Positions 2,630 through 15,573 of a DNA stretch of 20,824 nucleotides are shown piece after piece. Each line of letters begins with the position of its first letter. Position 1 is the stretch's first letter. The notes below the pieces were generated by a model that saw only the letters and a list, made by a program, of their open reading frames with translations, ran no database searches and was not told where the DNA came from. This stretch comes from a virus, in IMG/VR virus record IMGVR_UViG_3300023210_000277, positions 1 to 20,824 of that record; one strand, given 5' to 3'. A program made the translations under genes and the position numbers.

Positions 2630-3672
2630 TGTATCATAAACGTATTGTAGTAGATTTTGACGACACCTTAGCTTTCCATCAAAACCGTAAATTTGATCAA
2701 GCTTTACCAAACAAGCCTCTTATTACGAAGCTAAACAAGCTGCATGCTGATGGTTGGCAAATTGATATTTTTACAGCTCGTGGTTCTATATCATGTAAAA
2801 ATCGTGAAGATGCTCGTGATAAGTATGAAACAAACATGCTTAAATGGTTGAATAAGCACAAAGTAAAGTTTAATATGCTCTCATTTGATAAACCATTAGC
2901 AACTTATTATATCGATGATAAAGGTATTATGCCTGAAGATTTTATTGAAGTTGATATTCGTGAACTTGAAGGTGGATTATCTGGTGGTGAAATATATACC
3001 GATGGTAAAGTAGTCCATAAGCAAGATAGTAATGCTCATGAAACACGGCTTTGGTTTGAAAGAGCTGAAAAGATTGGTATTAAAACACCTGCTATTCATC
3101 GTGTTGTTGGTGAAACAATTACTATGGATTATATTGATCACGATGAAAACTTCTTTAAAGAAAACTTTTGGATGGCTTTAGCTACAGTTCAAACACAGTT
3201 AGATAAAATGAAGAAATTAAAGCCTGTTGATAATAGATCTTATGTAACGTTTAGTAGTTATATTGATCGTATTGAAGAACATGCACAAAATTCTGGCCAG
3301 AAAAAACTGATGGACGTAGCAGCAAGTTTAAAGGGTTATAAAATAAAGCGTAGTTATTCGCATGGTGATTTTGGCATTAAAAACATGTTATTCAATAATT
3401 GTGATATGCATTTAATGCATTTAATTGATCCAATTTATGGCGTGTTTGGTTCTACTGAATTAGATGCTGCAAAGTTTTGCGCGAGCCTGCTTATTAACGA
3501 GTACCCGAACAAACTATTTAGTCGATCTTTAAATTATTTGGCTATGGCAAATGATATAAATAGAAGTATGCTGGTATCGTTGGTAGCAGCCGAAGTGACT
3601 AGGGTGTACAAATATCACCCTAACAAAGATTTTATTATGGAGTGTATTGATAATGTTTACAAACAAAGCTGA
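2629..3672 (+). CDS. Fusion of BcbF/EcbF-like HAD phosphatase and APH/choline-kinase-like phosphotransferase
   Basis: Two enzyme domains can be read in 347 residues. Residues 1-110 are HAD-like: the D9-F-D11-D-T-L nucleophile motif, IFTARG (about 47-52), then FDKPLATYYIDDKG, supplying the Lys and the Asp pair. The overall order resembles the short capsule-biosynthesis phosphatases BcbF/EcbF. Residues ~120-347 look like an aminoglycoside/choline/ethanolamine kinase: Lys in VVHKQ as ATP anchor, a catalytic H245-G-D247-F-G-I-K-N252 loop and a metal-binding I-D267-P. The start overlaps the glycosyltransferase stop (TAATG). A cytidylyltransferase-like gene follows, overlapping by 20 bases. Kinase plus cytidylyltransferase pairs make CDP-activated head groups in capsule and LPS pathways. 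Here they sit inside a DNA-modification operon. The substrate is unknown. Confidence 0.78.
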   Translation: MYHKRIVVDFDDTLAFHQNRKFDQALPNKPLITKLNKLHADGWQIDIFTARGSISCKNREDARDKYETNMLKWLNKHKVKFNMLSFDKPLATYYIDDKGIMPEDFIEVDIRELEGGLSGGEIYTDGKVVHKQDSNAHETRLWFERAEKIGIKTPAIHRVVGETITMDYIDHDENFFKENFWMALATVQTQLDKMKKLKPVDNRSYVTFSSYIDRIEEHAQNSGQKKLMDVAASLKGYKIKRSYSHGDFGIKNMLFNNCDMHLMHLIDPIYGVFGSTELDAAKFCASLLINEYPNKLFSRSLNYLAMANDINRSMLVSLVAAEVTRVYKYHPNKDFIMECIDNVYKQS

Positions 3673-10056: not shown

Positions 10057-11124
10057 ATGAAACTAGTAATACTAACCAAAGACGTTAAGTCTGAAACTGT
10101 TGAGCGTCTATCCACCGAAATGACTAAAACCGGTGGTGAAGTTTATGCGGTAAACCTTGAAGGTGCCTACCTTAAAGACAATAAGATATTCAACATCGAT
10201 GATAAGAAGGGATTTGAAATATCCCCTCAAGATACAGTCGTTGCTGTTCGCGGGTCAATCACCCTTAAAGACTCTTATTTAGACCTACTATCTCAAATAG
10301 AAAAACGAAAAATCATGACGGTCAACAACCGCTTGTGTAATGAGATATGTGCTGATAAATTCAGAACTTCAATTATCCTCGATGAGGCTGGTATAGCTCA
10401 ACCTAAGACCGCCTTAATTGCTATTGGTGATAATATCAAAACCAATTACCCTGAGCAAGCATTTAACAAACTAGATACTAAATTCCCAGTTATTCTTAAA
10501 ACCCTACGTGGTGCTAAAGGTATCGGTGTATTGCTTATTGAGAGTATGCAAGCTTTAGAATCTACTACCCAATTATTATATAAGCTTGATGAAAGCTCTG
10601 ATTTGTTATTACAAGAATATATTAAATCAGACTTTGATATTAGAGTGCATGTATTAAATGGTGAAATCATTGGGGTTATGCGACGCAACGTGCCAGATGA
10701 TGATTTTAGATCAAATTACGCGCAAGGTGCAACCACTGAAAAATATAAGCTATCTAAGAAAGAAGAGGAAGTTGCACTAGCAGCTGCTAACGCCGTTAGT
10801 GGTTATTGGGTTGGGGTAGATTTTATTCCTAATAAGGGTAATCCATTAGTACTTGAAGTGAATTCATCAGCAGGCACTGAGGGCATCGAGCAGACTATTG
10901 GATCATCTATTAATAGAAAAGTAATTAAAACCATAACTAACTCAGATAATTGGATTAAAGCTAAAACTGTGATTGGTGTTAGAGAAATATTTGAATTTGA
11001 TTTGTTTGGTAAGATGAAGGCCAAATTAGATACTGGCAATTCTGTTAAGACTCTTGTTATGCATGCCGACGATCTTGTAGTTAAAAATGATAAAGTAACC
11101 TTTACATCCCACGGCCGTGAATAA
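10057..11124 (+). CDS. rimK: RimK-like ATP-grasp ligase fused to the N-terminal half of a RimB-like retropepsin domain
   Basis: Residues 1-~285 match the RimK family, which adds glutamates to ribosomal protein S6 in bacteria. The segments F-D-I-R-V-H-V-L-N-G-E, D-D-D-F-R-S-N, V-G-V-D-F-I-P and P-L-V-L-E-V-N-S-S-A-G-T-E-G-I-E match E. coli RimK block by block, including the ATP/Mg-binding D and E-x-N. From about residue 305 a different domain begins, V-I-G-V-R-E-I-F-E..K-M-K-A-K-L-D325-T-G-N-S. This is the start of the ATP-dependent zinc protease/RimB family (retropepsin-like, catalytic D-T-G). The domain stops after T-S-H-G-R-E, midway, and its second half is the next gene. A late-type promoter abuts the start. 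Phage control of S6 glutamylation is a plausible role, not shown by the sequence. Confidence 0.82.
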   Translation: MKLVILTKDVKSETVERLSTEMTKTGGEVYAVNLEGAYLKDNKIFNIDDKKGFEISPQDTVVAVRGSITLKDSYLDLLSQIEKRKIMTVNNRLCNEICADKFRTSIILDEAGIAQPKTALIAIGDNIKTNYPEQAFNKLDTKFPVILKTLRGAKGIGVLLIESMQALESTTQLLYKLDESSDLLLQEYIKSDFDIRVHVLNGEIIGVMRRNVPDDDFRSNYAQGATTEKYKLSKKEEEVALAAANAVSGYWVGVDFIPNKGNPLVLEVNSSAGTEGIEQTIGSSINRKVIKTITNSDNWIKAKTVIGVREIFEFDLFGKMKAKLDTGNSVKTLVMHADDLVVKNDKVTFTSHGRE

Positions 11125-11126
11125 CA

Positions 11127-11357
11127 ATGAAGCTGTATGGTATTAAAAAGATTAGATTAAATGGCGACAATGGATTAGAAGAGAGGCCTATGGTTATGTT
11201 AGACTTTACCTTTAATGGTGTTATTCATAAGAATGTAACCTTTACTTTAGATGATAGATCGACAAAAACAACTGAGGTATTAGTGAATAAAGATTGGATG
11301 ATTGATAACTCATTCATCATCGATCCTAGTCTGATGTATACTTTAGGAGAATTATAA
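11127..11357 (+). CDS. C-terminal half of a RimB-like (DUF785) retropepsin domain, separate gene
   Basis: The 76 residues contain E-E-R-P-M-V-M-L-D-F, a strand pair T-F-N-G-V-I-H-K-N-V-T-F-T-L-D-D-R-S, then W-M..N-S-F-I-I-D-P-S. This follows the family pattern (R-P-x-V-E-L..L-x-D-R-S..F-L-V-D-P-S) seen after the D-T-G half in one-piece RimB/zinc-protease proteins. It begins two bases after the stop of the RimK fusion in another frame. That frame is closed by a TGA at 11118-11120, so a simple single-base error does not obviously rejoin them. The two products probably assemble into one domain. There is no strong ribosome site, so coupling to the upstream stop is likely. Confidence 0.65.
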   Translation: MKLYGIKKIRLNGDNGLEERPMVMLDFTFNGVIHKNVTFTLDDRSTKTTEVLVNKDWMIDNSFIIDPSLMYTLGEL

Positions 11358-11365: not shown

Positions 11366-12238
11366 ATGCATAATTTTAAAAGCTTTTTAGACGAAGGTAA
11401 ATCTGAGATGTTATCAGAGAAACTTATCATGTTGAATAATGGCCGTAAAGACGGCCAAATCGTATTCCTCGCGGGTGGTGCTGGTTCTGGTAAGGGATTT
11501 GCTGCTACAAACTTCATGGAGAAGGAAAAGTTTAAGGTAAGAGATGTTGATGAGTGGAAGAAAGTGTTTCAAAAGATTGCTGATACTCAAGCAAAGTATC
11601 CAGAAATAAAAGGATTAGACATGAAGAAACCTGCTGATGTTGCTAAGCTTCATATGTTCATTAAGAAACTTGGTCTTAAAGATAAGACACTTGACTTAAT
11701 GTTAGGGCAACTTAAAGATAGAAAGAAGTTACCTAATATCATGTTTGATATTACGGCTAAAGACACTAAAGATGTATCTCAATTCCTTCCAAGATTATTA
11801 GCAGCTGGTTATAACCCTGCCAACATTCATTTAGTATGGGTGTTAACCGATTATAAAATTGCGATTAAGCAGAATGCAGATAGAGATAGAGTTGTGCCTT
11901 CTGACATTATGTTGCAAACACATAAAGGCGCATCTGAAACTGTGTACTCATATGTCACAGGAGAAGGTAAGAAGATGCAAATTAATGGTGAGATACATGT
12001 AATTTTAAATAACAAAGAAAACACCGTTATGTTTACTCCTTCAGGCAATGATAGAACTTCTAAGATAAGTGGTAAGAAGAATGGCGTAGTTGTTAAAGAC
12101 TTTACATACTTAACATTAAAGAAACGCGGCAAAGCACTGATCAAAATAGATAAGGTAATGAAACAACTATACTATTGGGTAGTGGATAATATACCAAAGT
12201 CCGATTTTCAAAAAGCATTAACGGATACAATTAAGTAA
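11366..12238 (+). CDS. Capsid-targeted P-loop kinase-like protein (zeta-toxin/AAA type)
   Basis: The N-terminus M-H-N-F-K-S-F-L-D-E followed by Gly resembles the T4 capsid-targeting peptide (MKTYQEFIAE, then Ala). Its L-x-E is a prohead-protease-type site, so cleavage after Glu10 is predicted. After it comes a P-loop kinase: beta strand I-V-F-L-A then G37-G-A-G-S-G-K43-G (Walker A). V-R-D-V-D-E-W and P-N-I-M-F-D-I-T-A-K-D are likely the acceptor and Walker B regions. Length 290 aa. The fold suggests phosphoryl transfer to a small molecule, protein or nucleic acid, and the substrate is unknown. The C-terminal ~100 residues are beta-rich and unassigned. It is the first of four genes with such N-termini in this block. 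Confidence 0.7.
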   Translation: MHNFKSFLDEGKSEMLSEKLIMLNNGRKDGQIVFLAGGAGSGKGFAATNFMEKEKFKVRDVDEWKKVFQKIADTQAKYPEIKGLDMKKPADVAKLHMFIKKLGLKDKTLDLMLGQLKDRKKLPNIMFDITAKDTKDVSQFLPRLLAAGYNPANIHLVWVLTDYKIAIKQNADRDRVVPSDIMLQTHKGASETVYSYVTGEGKKMQINGEIHVILNNKENTVMFTPSGNDRTSKISGKKNGVVVKDFTYLTLKKRGKALIKIDKVMKQLYYWVVDNIPKSDFQKALTDTIK

Positions 12239-12320
12239 ATACTAAGATCGCTTCTTTGGCTAGTCAATTACCAAACAATCCCCAAGTGAAAGCTTGGATG
12301 GATGTAAATTAAGGATATTC
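12239..12320 (+). other. 82-base spacer with GNRA-capped hairpin and a short peptide-like frame
   Basis: The gap before the nuclease-like gene holds a 6-bp stem-loop at 12282-12297 (CCAAGT, GAAA tetraloop, GCTTGG with one G-U pair). It has no T-run, so it is not a standard terminator. One frame between stops reads KIASLASQLPNNPQVKAWMD and then VN, which looks protein-like but has no ATG and no ribosome site. The downstream ATG has its own AAGGA at 12311-12315. Confidence 0.4.
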
Positions 12321-13193
12321 ATGGACAATTTTAAAGGTTATATATTAAACGAAGCAGCTAACAGTAGCTTTCAAGTCATCATTGACGACATGTTGACAGA
12401 TAAAGAAAAGAAGGTGTATGGTAAGTATGATATTCCTAAGAAGAGTTTTAAGTTAAAGCTTCATCCTAAGGATAAGAAGACTTTCATCAAGCTGTTTAAA
12501 GAAGCTCCTGATAAGACAGTTGGTAATGGTGAAGTTTCCTTATATTGGTTGTTTGACGGCAGAGCCCAAGAGACACGTGGTGGTACTGAGCCAGACTTGC
12601 GTATTCATGGTTTGGCTGTTGAAGTAAAAGCATATCCAAAACATGATCCGATATCGTTAGGAAGATTCCAGGATAGACGAGAGTTTAGAGCATTACTAAA
12701 CACTTTGTTTGGCATCTCTAATTTATTCCAAGCCTTCTCAAAAGATAACAGCAAAGGCAATCAATCTTTCAAAGGGGAATTGTCATTCAGATACCCTGAT
12801 GTACTAGAAGCAGCTGAGAAGTTTATTGAATTATCAGAGCTATTCAAGGGCAACAAAGATCTAATGAACTTTAAAATATTTAAAGACATGAAAAAGACTA
12901 CTGATGATTTTGAGAAACAATTGAAAAAGTTGGGATACGGATCCAAGATTAATGATCCTGAAAGCATTGCTGTAGGTTTAATGAAACGCTTGATTGATGT
13001 GTTAGTTGGGGATAAGCCTGGTGATAAAGGATATATTGCTAATGTCAAAGATAGTGATCCAACTGACATTTGGTTCCATTACATAGACTTTAAAAATATG
13101 GTTAACGACACCAAGACTCTATCTAAAAAAGGAACATTTGCTGTTAATGGTGGAACATTCAAGGCATCTTTCAGTACACTGTTTCCTGGATAA
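12321..13193 (+). CDS. Capsid-targeted PD-(D/E)XK nuclease-like protein
   Basis: I chose ATG 12321 over an in-frame ATG at 12294 because AAGGA lies five bases before it and the protein then starts M-D-N-F-K-G-Y-I-L-N-E followed by Ala, a T4 capsid-targeting-like peptide with an L-x-E cleavage site. The 290-residue protein contains G-N-G-E71-V-S-L, then E-P-D92-L-R-I-H-G-L-A-V-E101-V-K103-A-Y. This layout (Glu in a helix, then P-D..E-x-K across a beta hairpin) is that of PD-(D/E)XK endonucleases. The remaining ~185 residues are mostly helical and unassigned. A packaged nuclease would suit attack on unmodified host DNA or DNA processing on entry, but this is inference. Full alignment is needed to confirm the nuclease fold. 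Confidence 0.62.
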   Translation: MDNFKGYILNEAANSSFQVIIDDMLTDKEKKVYGKYDIPKKSFKLKLHPKDKKTFIKLFKEAPDKTVGNGEVSLYWLFDGRAQETRGGTEPDLRIHGLAVEVKAYPKHDPISLGRFQDRREFRALLNTLFGISNLFQAFSKDNSKGNQSFKGELSFRYPDVLEAAEKFIELSELFKGNKDLMNFKIFKDMKKTTDDFEKQLKKLGYGSKINDPESIAVGLMKRLIDVLVGDKPGDKGYIANVKDSDPTDIWFHYIDFKNMVNDTKTLSKKGTFAVNGGTFKASFSTLFPG

Positions 13194-13197
13194 CATA

Positions 13198-14427
13198 ATG
13201 AAATCATTTGAAAGACATTTAGCAGAAGCTAAGAACACACATATGATCCATATCGAGGATATGGTTATTGATGGTGGAGTTGATGGTACACGTGCAGCAA
13301 TCAATGCTCTCCGTGATTTAAGGAATATGTTAGTGGGTCATACCAATGATACTAAAGCTGTTACGGTTAAATGGGATGGAGCACCTGCAGTATTTGCTGG
13401 CATTGATCCTACTGACGGAGAGTTCTTCGTTGCTAAGAAAGGTATCTTTAATAAAAACCCAAAGGTATATAAAAGTCATGATGACATTAACGCTGATACT
13501 TCAGGTGATCTGGCTGCTAAGCTTCGTATAGCATATACTGAATTAAAGAAAGTAGTTACTAAAGGTGTATTTCAAGGTGATATCATGTTCACTAAAGATG
13601 ACCTTAAAGGTGAGACTATTGATGGACAAAGGTATATAACCTTCCACCCCAACACTATTGTATATGCAGTACCTGTAAAGGATGCTAAAGAAGTATTAGC
13701 CGCTAAGATAGGTGTTGTGTGGCATACTAAATATACAGGCTCTTCATTTGCCGGTATGAGTGCTTCATTCAATGTTAAAGATAGTGACTTTATTAAAACA
13801 TCTAAGGTGTGGCAGAAGACTGCGGATTTGCCTGAAGATCATAGTGCAACGTTAAGTGAAAAGGATTCAAATACAATCTATCAACATTTATCTATTGCTG
13901 GTAAATTGTTTAATAAGATTAAATCGTCTACGCTTAAAGAGGTTTCAACAAATAAAGAGATTAATTTATATATTAATACTTTTAGAAACACTAAGGTAAG
14001 AGCTCAATCTGATATCACTAACACCAAGAAGCATACTGAAGAATTAGTACAGTGGATCCATAACCGCTTTGACAAAGAGATTGATAAGCTTAAATCTGAT
14101 AAGGGTAAGGCTAAGAAGAATGCTAAGAAGATTGAAGCATTGGATTGGTTCAATAAAGAAAATACTAAGAATTTAATACTTATGTTTGACATGCAAAATC
14201 ATTTAGTCATCGTTAAGAGAATGTTACTCACGCACTTAGATTCTATAAAAAGTATAAATACCTTTGTAAAGACTAAAAACGGTTTTAAAGTGACAGGCTC
14301 AGAAGGTTATGTTGCTATAGACCATTTAACAAACGGTGCGTATAAGATCGTTAACCGTATGGAATTTAGTTATAACAATTTTAGTAAAGACATAATCAAA
14401 GGATGGGAGTCTGATGCTAGAGGTTAA
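13198..14427 (+). CDS. Capsid-targeted DUF6267-like protein with ligase-type KxDG motif
   Basis: The true start is ATG 13198, four bases after the previous stop. An in-frame upstream extension lies wholly inside the nuclease-like gene. It gives M-K-S-F-E-R-H-L-A-E followed by Ala, a clear match to the T4 capsid-targeting peptide and its cleavage site. The 409-residue body contains T-V-K58-W-D60-G61-A-P-A-V, F-F-V-A-K-K-G (77-82), V-F-Q-G127-D-I-M-F, and W-H-T-K178-Y-T-G. These resemble, in order, motifs I, III/IIIa, IV and V of nucleotidyltransferase-type nucleic-acid ligases. The protein looks like the conserved phage family DUF6267, which lacks an agreed function. The C-terminal half is helical and Lys-rich. 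A ligase or nucleic-acid-capping activity is inference. Confidence 0.65.
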   Translation: MKSFERHLAEAKNTHMIHIEDMVIDGGVDGTRAAINALRDLRNMLVGHTNDTKAVTVKWDGAPAVFAGIDPTDGEFFVAKKGIFNKNPKVYKSHDDINADTSGDLAAKLRIAYTELKKVVTKGVFQGDIMFTKDDLKGETIDGQRYITFHPNTIVYAVPVKDAKEVLAAKIGVVWHTKYTGSSFAGMSASFNVKDSDFIKTSKVWQKTADLPEDHSATLSEKDSNTIYQHLSIAGKLFNKIKSSTLKEVSTNKEINLYINTFRNTKVRAQSDITNTKKHTEELVQWIHNRFDKEIDKLKSDKGKAKKNAKKIEALDWFNKENTKNLILMFDMQNHLVIVKRMLLTHLDSIKSINTFVKTKNGFKVTGSEGYVAIDHLTNGAYKIVNRMEFSYNNFSKDIIKGWESDARG

Positions 14428-14758
14428 TGAAGCTTTAAATGCTATACAACGTGCGAAGATGAAAATGGCTTTTAAGAAAAGCGCATCTAAGCGTAAGATA
14501 GGTCAGAAGAAAGCTTTAAACAAAGTTGCTAGTGGTGATAAACTTAAAGACCTGGCTCACAAAAAAGCTAAAGACATAATTATTAAAAAGATACTCAAAG
14601 GTAAGAGTAAGTCAGACCTACCAATAGCAGCCCGAGATAAGCTAGAAAAGAAAGTTAAAAAGAAGGCAGGAGTTATTGCTAAACTAGCTAAGAAGATCAT
14701 GCCTAAAGTTAAAGCTGGTAATAAGGCTAGAGTAGCAGCACATGAGGCAAATAAATGA
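14414..14758 (+). CDS. Small, highly basic conserved phage protein, 114 aa
   Basis: The 114 residues are rich in Lys, Ala and Arg, with repeated K-K-x-x patterns (AFKKSASKRKIGQKKALNKV; LEKKVKKKAGVIAKLAKKIM). They are predicted to be helical. Similar basic proteins sit beside DUF6267-like genes in marine T4-like phages. A DNA-binding, head-core or internal-head role is plausible from charge and context, but not shown. A GGGAG site five bases before the ATG and a 14-base overlap with the gene before support the start. The stop overlaps the next ATG (ATGA). Unlike its neighbours, it has no capsid-targeting-like N-terminus. Confidence 0.7.
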   Translation: MLEVNEALNAIQRAKMKMAFKKSASKRKIGQKKALNKVASGDKLKDLAHKKAKDIIIKKILKGKSKSDLPIAARDKLEKKVKKKAGVIAKLAKKIMPKVKAGNKARVAAHEANK

Positions 14759-15573
14759 TTCACGGATTTAAGGAACACTACTTAAAGGAAGAAGCTGCGA
14801 AAGAGGTTGTTATTACCTTTGGTAGATTCAATCCGCCCACAAACGGCCACGAGAAGTTACTTGATAAAGTAGCTAAAGTAGCTAAAGGGGCCTACCGCGT
14901 ATATTCATCACAGTCACAAGATGCAAAGAAGAACCCGTTAGGATTCACTGATAAAGTTAAGTTTATGCGGAAGATGTTTCCTAAGCATGCAAGATCAATC
15001 TTATTAGATAAGTCTGTTCGTGACTTCTTTCAAGCATTATCTGCGACGTATGCTGATGGATTTACCAAATGTACTATTGTCGTTGGTTCGGATAGAGTTA
15101 AAGAATTTGATAAAATCTTAAATAAGTATAATGGTACTAAAGGTAAGCATGGATTCTATGATTTTGATGGTGGCGTGAATGTAGTTTCTGCAGGAGAACG
15201 TGACCCTGACTCGGACGATGTATCTGGCATGTCAGCTTCTAAACTTAGAGCTGCGGCTAAAGATAACGATCTTATTACATTTTCTAAAGGAATGCCTAAA
15301 GGATTCAAAGGTGCTGAATCATTAATGAATTCTGTTAGAGCTGGCTTAGGTCTTAAAGAAACATACGTATACAAGCAAGAAACAAAATTAAAGAGACTTT
15401 CAGTGTTAAGAGAGAAGTACATTAAAGGGAATCTATTTGAGGTCGGTGATGAAGTAATTATCGTCGAATCTCATGAGCGGGCTATTATAAATAAATTATG
15501 TAGCAATTATGTAGAAGTTAATATTAATGGAGAGACAAAGAATGTTTGGATCTCTGATATATGCAAGGAATAA
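14755..15573 (+). CDS. Capsid-targeted nucleotidyltransferase (NMNAT/cytidylyltransferase fold) with SH3-like tail
   Basis: The N-terminus M-I-H-G-F-K-E-H-Y-L-K-E is again a targeting-like peptide ending in L-x-E. Residues 18-32 are V-V-I-T-F-G-R-F-N-P-P-T-N-G-H, the nucleotide-binding motif of NMN adenylyltransferases and relatives (T-x-G-H instead of H-x-G-H). Near residue 158 G-M-S-A-S-K-L-R matches the second motif (I-S-x-T-x-x-R). The C-terminal ~45 residues (F-E-V-G-D-E-V-I-I-V, N-Y-V-E-V-N-I-N-G-E) look like a small KOW/SH3-like beta domain. Length is 272 aa. The reaction should join NTP to a phosphorylated small molecule, such as NMN to NAD. The substrate is not determinable. Delivery with the DNA could alter host NAD or nucleotide metabolism at entry. 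Confidence 0.72.
   Translation: MIHGFKEHYLKEEAAKEVVITFGRFNPPTNGHEKLLDKVAKVAKGAYRVYSSQSQDAKKNPLGFTDKVKFMRKMFPKHARSILLDKSVRDFFQALSATYADGFTKCTIVVGSDRVKEFDKILNKYNGTKGKHGFYDFDGGVNVVSAGERDPDSDDVSGMSASKLRAAAKDNDLITFSKGMPKGFKGAESLMNSVRAGLGLKETYVYKQETKLKRLSVLREKYIKGNLFEVGDEVIIVESHERAIINKLCSNYVEVNINGETKNVWISDICKE

Follow-up and report, generated by a model that had tools for sequence, protein, structure and literature searches.

The window analysed here, a DNA of 20,824 nt from a marine T4-like phage (IMG/VR record IMGVR_UViG_3300023210_000277, positions 1-20,824), carries four neighbouring plus-strand genes (11366-15573) whose products share a short N-terminal peptide, hereafter called the tag. Tag 1, MHNFKSFLDE (11366-11395; cleavage predicted between E10 and G), precedes the body of a Zeta-toxin-like P-loop kinase (11396-12238; PF06414, E = 3.9e-5; phrog_5268, E = 2.6e-51). 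Tag 2, MDNFKGYILNE (12321-12353; cleavage predicted between E11 and A), is followed by an orphan body with a PD-(D/E)XK-nuclease-like motif read from the sequence, PDLRIHGLAVEVK (12354-13193). Tag 3, MKSFERHLAE (13198-13227; cleavage predicted between E10 and A), stands in front of a DUF6267 body with an invariant KWDG (13228-14427; PF19782, E = 6.7e-94), and tag 4, MIHGFKEHYLKE (14755-14790; cleavage predicted between E12 and E), in front of a cytidylyltransferase-like nucleotidyltransferase (14791-15573; PF01467, E = 5.6e-5; phrog_395, E = 1.2e-63). The original prediction, made from the letters of the window, had read the four starts at 11366, 12321, 13198 and 14755 exactly as they are found. 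The mechanical list of open reading frames offers TTG starts further upstream for two of the tagged genes (12294 and 13138); in relatives, the tag is kept at the internal ATG and not at the upstream TTG of that list. AAGGA is present 5′ of the ATG of tag 2 (12321), and the start of the tag-4 gene (14755) overlaps the stop of the preceding gene.

The same prediction had likened the four starts to that of T4 internal proteins, MKTYQEFIAE/A (the slash marks the cut), a start that was checked for IPII and IPIII. Mutagenesis of the 10-residue signal of IPIII assigned residues 4 and 7 to targeting and residues 8 and 10 to processing, and the protease gp21 cleaves after L/I-x-E (PMC9026906). The conserved positions of the tag (F4, an aromatic residue or His at 7, L/I at 8, and E10) correspond to these functional positions, and position 9 is free. 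Tags 1 and 3 fit the 10-residue signal exactly (position 7 of tag 3 is His). In tags 2 and 4, the stretch from the first aromatic residue (F) to the cut is longer by one residue. All four tags obey the L/I-x-E rule. Most gp23 homologues also show a site of the L/I-x-E type. When T4 gp23 was scored with a model made from marine tags only (training tags picked by eye from a contig listing; a different set served for the test on the window), the best position was E65/A66 (AFGSFLTE/A; 16.6 bits), the known gp21 cut that removes the 65-residue propeptide. The marine-tag model also finds E10 in IPII and IPIII; on T4 Alt, gp24 and IPI, it did not find the sites well. Gene 61.1 of T4 (NC_000866, 18966-19130, minus strand) encodes a hypothetical protein of 54 residues that starts MKTFKEFIKE/D and scores 11.8, higher than IPII and IPIII; judged by this start, gp61.1 is a possible unrecognised internal protein. 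Major capsid protein N-termini of S-SZBM1 (gp176) and Melnitz, of the form M..(S/T)EHLQEKW, score like the tag as well and may be either a chance match or, within the gp23 propeptide, a core-binding element related to the tag; the S-SZBM1 start, MFNSEHLQE, is likely a false positive.

Short sequences can resemble each other by chance, and weak single patterns do match randomly: loose regular expressions yield 2-7 expected hits per genome and, when started from any ATG, were too permissive to be used (7 seen versus 4.7 expected in T4). They were replaced by a position-weighted model. An independent model with six columns, trained only on T4 IPII/IPIII and on tags of isolated cyanophages, ranked the four tagged proteins first to fourth among the 28 genes scored in the window (P = 0.0006, 0.0010, 0.0017 and 0.0032 for tags 3, 4, 2 and 1, respectively), the fifth-ranked gene reaching only P = 0.10. 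For DUF6267, 53 distinct N-termini from viral contigs with a DUF6267 relative and from other loci were aligned on the body (KNTH...), not on the tag. Glutamate was present in 53/53 and L/I at −2 in 53/53, F/L at −6 in 51 and H/Y/F at −3 in 47 of them, and the residue just before the glutamate (−1) was the most variable column of all. Relatives show the pattern in their kinase, cytidylyltransferase and orphan families as well (kinase tags are, for example, MKTFKQHLVE and MKKFNEFITE), and the motif search in relatives that had been suggested with the original prediction found it on ∼20 bodies without mutual relationship in related viral contigs, for which open reading frames were called mechanically. 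The shared pattern that had been noticed in the four proteins is thus confirmed by the ranking and by its conservation in relatives. With four adjacent genes each at P ≤ 0.0032 in a 28-gene window, and with conservation over dozens of contigs, by which we consider chance already refuted, the probability of a fortuitous likeness is negligible.

The tag behaves as a module: the DUF6267 homologues of S-SZBM1, S-CRM01 and S-SM1 do not carry it, and in S-SZBM1 the body has its first residues (AKNTH) where the cut is predicted; this S-SZBM1 protein is absent from the virion list. Among the IMG/VR loci, the slot directly 5′ of DUF6267 holds different, unrelated proteins in different contigs, several of them tagged, as in an exchangeable cargo site.

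Tagged homologues of the cytidylyltransferase family encoded in the window are present in purified virions of three cyanophages, S-CREM2, S-SZBM1 and S-SM1, according to mass spectrometry lists. The S-CREM2 cytidylyltransferase gp154 starts MKNFSSFLTE/A, that of S-SZBM1 (_140) starts MRFRQFIIE/A, and the S-SM1 virion protein T4-GC190 starts MKKFSAFLNE/A. The 219 translated genes of S-CREM2 were scored by a marine-tag model without any sequence from S-CREM2 and compared with the published list of 52 virion proteins. The five highest scores all belong to proteins on that list (Fisher P = 0.00065), namely gp154, the kinase gp14, gp13, the S-adenosylmethionine (SAM) hydrolase gp6, and gp136, and no other protein reaches such scores. 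The signal resides in the tail only; on the whole score distribution, a Mann–Whitney test was not significant. The S-CRM01 kinase, which starts MISFDQFLSE/K, was reported in virions (PMC10665884). A further S-CREM2 virion protein, gp12 (L004:7704-10313), has the tag at residues 19-25 behind a leader. This leader of ∼18 residues is conserved, contains SRW, and is followed by a capsid-targeting-like site such as GFSSFLKE/A; leader and tag are kept in S-H34, S-N03 and S-B68, with a related form on S-CRM01 g128, which is a post hoc extension of the pattern. The annotation of gp12 as Cas9 is unsupported by Pfam or PADLOC and was not relied on.

The four N-termini are very probably capsid-targeting propeptides of the T4 internal-protein type that load the enzymes into the head. 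The capsid loading put forward in the original prediction is supported both by the S-CREM2 top five being virion proteins and by the tagged cytidylyltransferases in the particles of three phages; for relatives, the support for head loading is good. At a late stage of infection, the gp22-type scaffold core would be the binding partner of the peptide, which has an aromatic residue at position 4 or 5 and an aromatic residue or His three positions before the cut. The bound peptide would carry the enzyme into the prohead, where cleavage after L/I-x-E by a gp21-type protease would release the enzyme amid the packaged genome; when the particle infects another cell, the enzymes would exit along with this DNA and start to work in the host ahead of the expression of any phage gene. 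The head genes that such a mechanism calls upon were found in relatives. gp21 was not found in the 20.8-kb window; the closest long relative, a contig of 79.5 kb (G001) that is 97-98% identical to the window kinase and DUF6267, encodes homologues of gp21, gp22 and gp23, the T4-type protease, scaffold and capsid protein, and gp21 homologues are also present in five isolates. The residues of G001 gp21 that align with T4 H85 and S140, presumably the catalytic pair of the T4 enzyme, are kept. Trimming by a gp21-type protease, likewise part of the original prediction, is strongly implied because the tag ends in L/I-x-E and resembles the gp23 site, and because gp21 homologues retain the H85- and S140-aligned residues. 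Since relatives carry the tag on enzymes already found in particles, the four enzymes probably enter the host along with the viral DNA. Injection and early action have been shown for T4 Alt and the internal proteins, and by analogy, the enzymes of the window would behave likewise.

Several points weigh against this interpretation. The virion detections come from cyanophages that are not close relatives of the window phage, head genes are missing from the window fragment, and the trimming is predicted from sequence. In S-SZBM1, with a list of 30 virion proteins, the link between tag and virion is not significant (P = 0.09-0.14), and two tagged small proteins (_191 and _192) are undetected. Finally, the authors of the S-CREM2 study cautioned that abundant enzymes may be contaminants, a possibility also raised by those of S-SCSM1. 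If all cyanophage detections were co-purified abundant enzymes, the tag would be unrelated to packaging, as the non-significant S-SZBM1 result might suggest; but co-purified contaminants would not coincide with the five best scores for an N-terminal motif that had been derived from other phages, and many abundant replication enzymes are missing from the S-CREM2 virion list, which makes this explanation very improbable. Equally improbable is a role of the shared N-terminus in docking to something else (a host target or an enzyme complex), with a likeness to the T4 signal that arose by convergence. Short amphipathic N-terminal peptides do dock cargo in bacterial compartments; against such a role here stand the match to all four functional positions and to the protease rule, the recovery of the gp23 cut site, and the virion enrichment in S-CREM2.

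The bodies had been described in the original prediction as unrelated to each other, which agrees with the Pfam and PHROGs assignments (Zeta-toxin-like kinase, orphan, DUF6267, and cytidylyltransferase-like). The second protein (12321) has a PD-x10-EVK motif of the PD-(D/E)XK-like type, which is suggestive of a nuclease of that class; it has no match in Pfam, PHROG or NCBIfam, and its predicted structure is too poor for use (predicted local distance difference test, pLDDT, 40.6). In DUF6267, the motif reads K58-W-D60-G61, with K58, D60 and G61 invariant in 44/44 sequences, and so has the form KxDG of motif I of covalent nucleotidyltransferases (ligases and capping enzymes). A structural model of the protein (mean pLDDT 74) matched DNA ligase 1 and mRNA guanylyltransferase weakly, at sub-significant E values of 1.1-2.6. 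Sequence and fold searches against the PDB gave no convincing match for DUF6267, sequence searches there gave none for the kinase or the cytidylyltransferase, and PADLOC found no defence-system match for the four tagged proteins. The cytidylyltransferase carries the HIGH-type motif GRFNPPTNGH. Most likely, the cargo would handle or repair nucleotides or nucleic acids, and it probably acts on nucleotides, nicotinamide adenine dinucleotide (NAD) or RNA ends.

The conserved enzyme motifs (KxDG in DUF6267 and GRFNPPTNGH in the cytidylyltransferase) argue for catalysis and hence bear on whether the tagged proteins, although packaged and cut, serve head morphogenesis (core filling and scaffold contacts) rather than the next host. 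A Lys-rich small protein that looks DNA- or core-binding is encoded within the cluster, between two tagged genes (14414-14758, plus strand); it is untagged in the window and tagged in C48C1 (MLSFKQFVSE/V). Such a protein would suit a structural function, as would the slower head assembly of T4 IPIII mutants (PMC9026906). Tags that come and go on the same body, and slots that often swap bodies, speak against it together with the motifs, and we consider a purely morphogenetic role unlikely, if less so than co-purification or docking.

The 10-residue capsid-targeting sequence of T4 IPII and IPIII was reportedly described by Mullaney and Black in 1996. The tag resembles it in the aromatic residues at 4 and 7, I/L at 8, E10 and a following A (MKTYQEFIAE/A), in being a modular N-terminus on unrelated bodies, and in the presence of a gp21-type protease in the genome (here, in the relative G001). 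It differs in that two window tags are longer by the residue between F and the cut, and in the cargo, which consists of small basic proteins in T4 and here of enzymes of 272-409 residues in a conserved cassette. Like the putative cargo of the window, T4 Alt, an injected ADP-ribosyltransferase, is a head-packaged enzyme with an N-terminal propeptide that is sent in with the DNA, injection being assumed here by analogy; unlike it, Alt belongs to a different enzyme class, and its propeptide (MELITELFDE) fits the marine motif poorly. The ejection proteins of the giant phages SPN3US and phiKZ, which are cut by a gp21 homologue, are similarly packaged in the head and trimmed after glutamate but differ in family and targeting. 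Also close are the cyanophage virion enzymes compared here (cytidylyltransferase/NMNAT-like proteins, kinase, SAM hydrolase and "Cas9" of S-CREM2, S-SCSM1 and S-SZBM1, and T4-GC190 of S-SM1), with the same cytidylyltransferase family and the tag on proteins of S-CREM2, S-SZBM1 and S-SM1. In T-even phages, injected proteins have been found via the signal sequence (Repoila 1994, as cited in PMC12373910).

Cargo with a capsid-targeting sequence is already known; what is added is the same signal logic on large enzymes in a conserved marine cassette, in another branch of T4-like phages. In the open literature, with most subscription journals outside its scope, we found no description of the tag, be it in marine T4-like phages or on the enzymes in question, no name for it, and no proposed packaging signal for cyanophage virion enzymes. 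Metabolic and defence-related enzymes have turned up in purified particles of cyanophages in the work of several groups, who could not decide between cargo and contamination. With a short sequence rule that predicts packaged proteins and matches the mutationally defined T4 signal, this question becomes directly testable, and many hypothetical proteins encoded by abundant ocean phages become candidates for injected effectors. Tentatively, one cleavable head-targeting tag could be a general delivery signal in marine T4-like phages for enzymes of many and rapidly changing kinds (kinases, nucleotidyltransferases, ligase-like proteins, nucleases and SAM-degrading enzymes), injected to pre-empt host defences (such as NAD depletion, RNA cleavage or restriction) ahead of the reading of any phage gene, and the injected set of a phage would be predictable from the tag alone; for this joint proposal, the balance tips slightly towards its not holding in full.

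Just 5′ of the tagged cluster (10057-11357) lie a gene for a RimK-like ATP-grasp ligase and then a small gene, which matches the C-terminal half of RloA/retropepsin-like Zn_protease domains. The T4 late-promoter-like sequence TATAAATA is not more frequent in the window than expected by chance (6 seen versus 3.9 expected). Its occurrences at 3555, 10044, 11353, 14253, 15486 and 20599 are all on the plus strand, and the one at 11353 is located directly before the kinase start at 11366.
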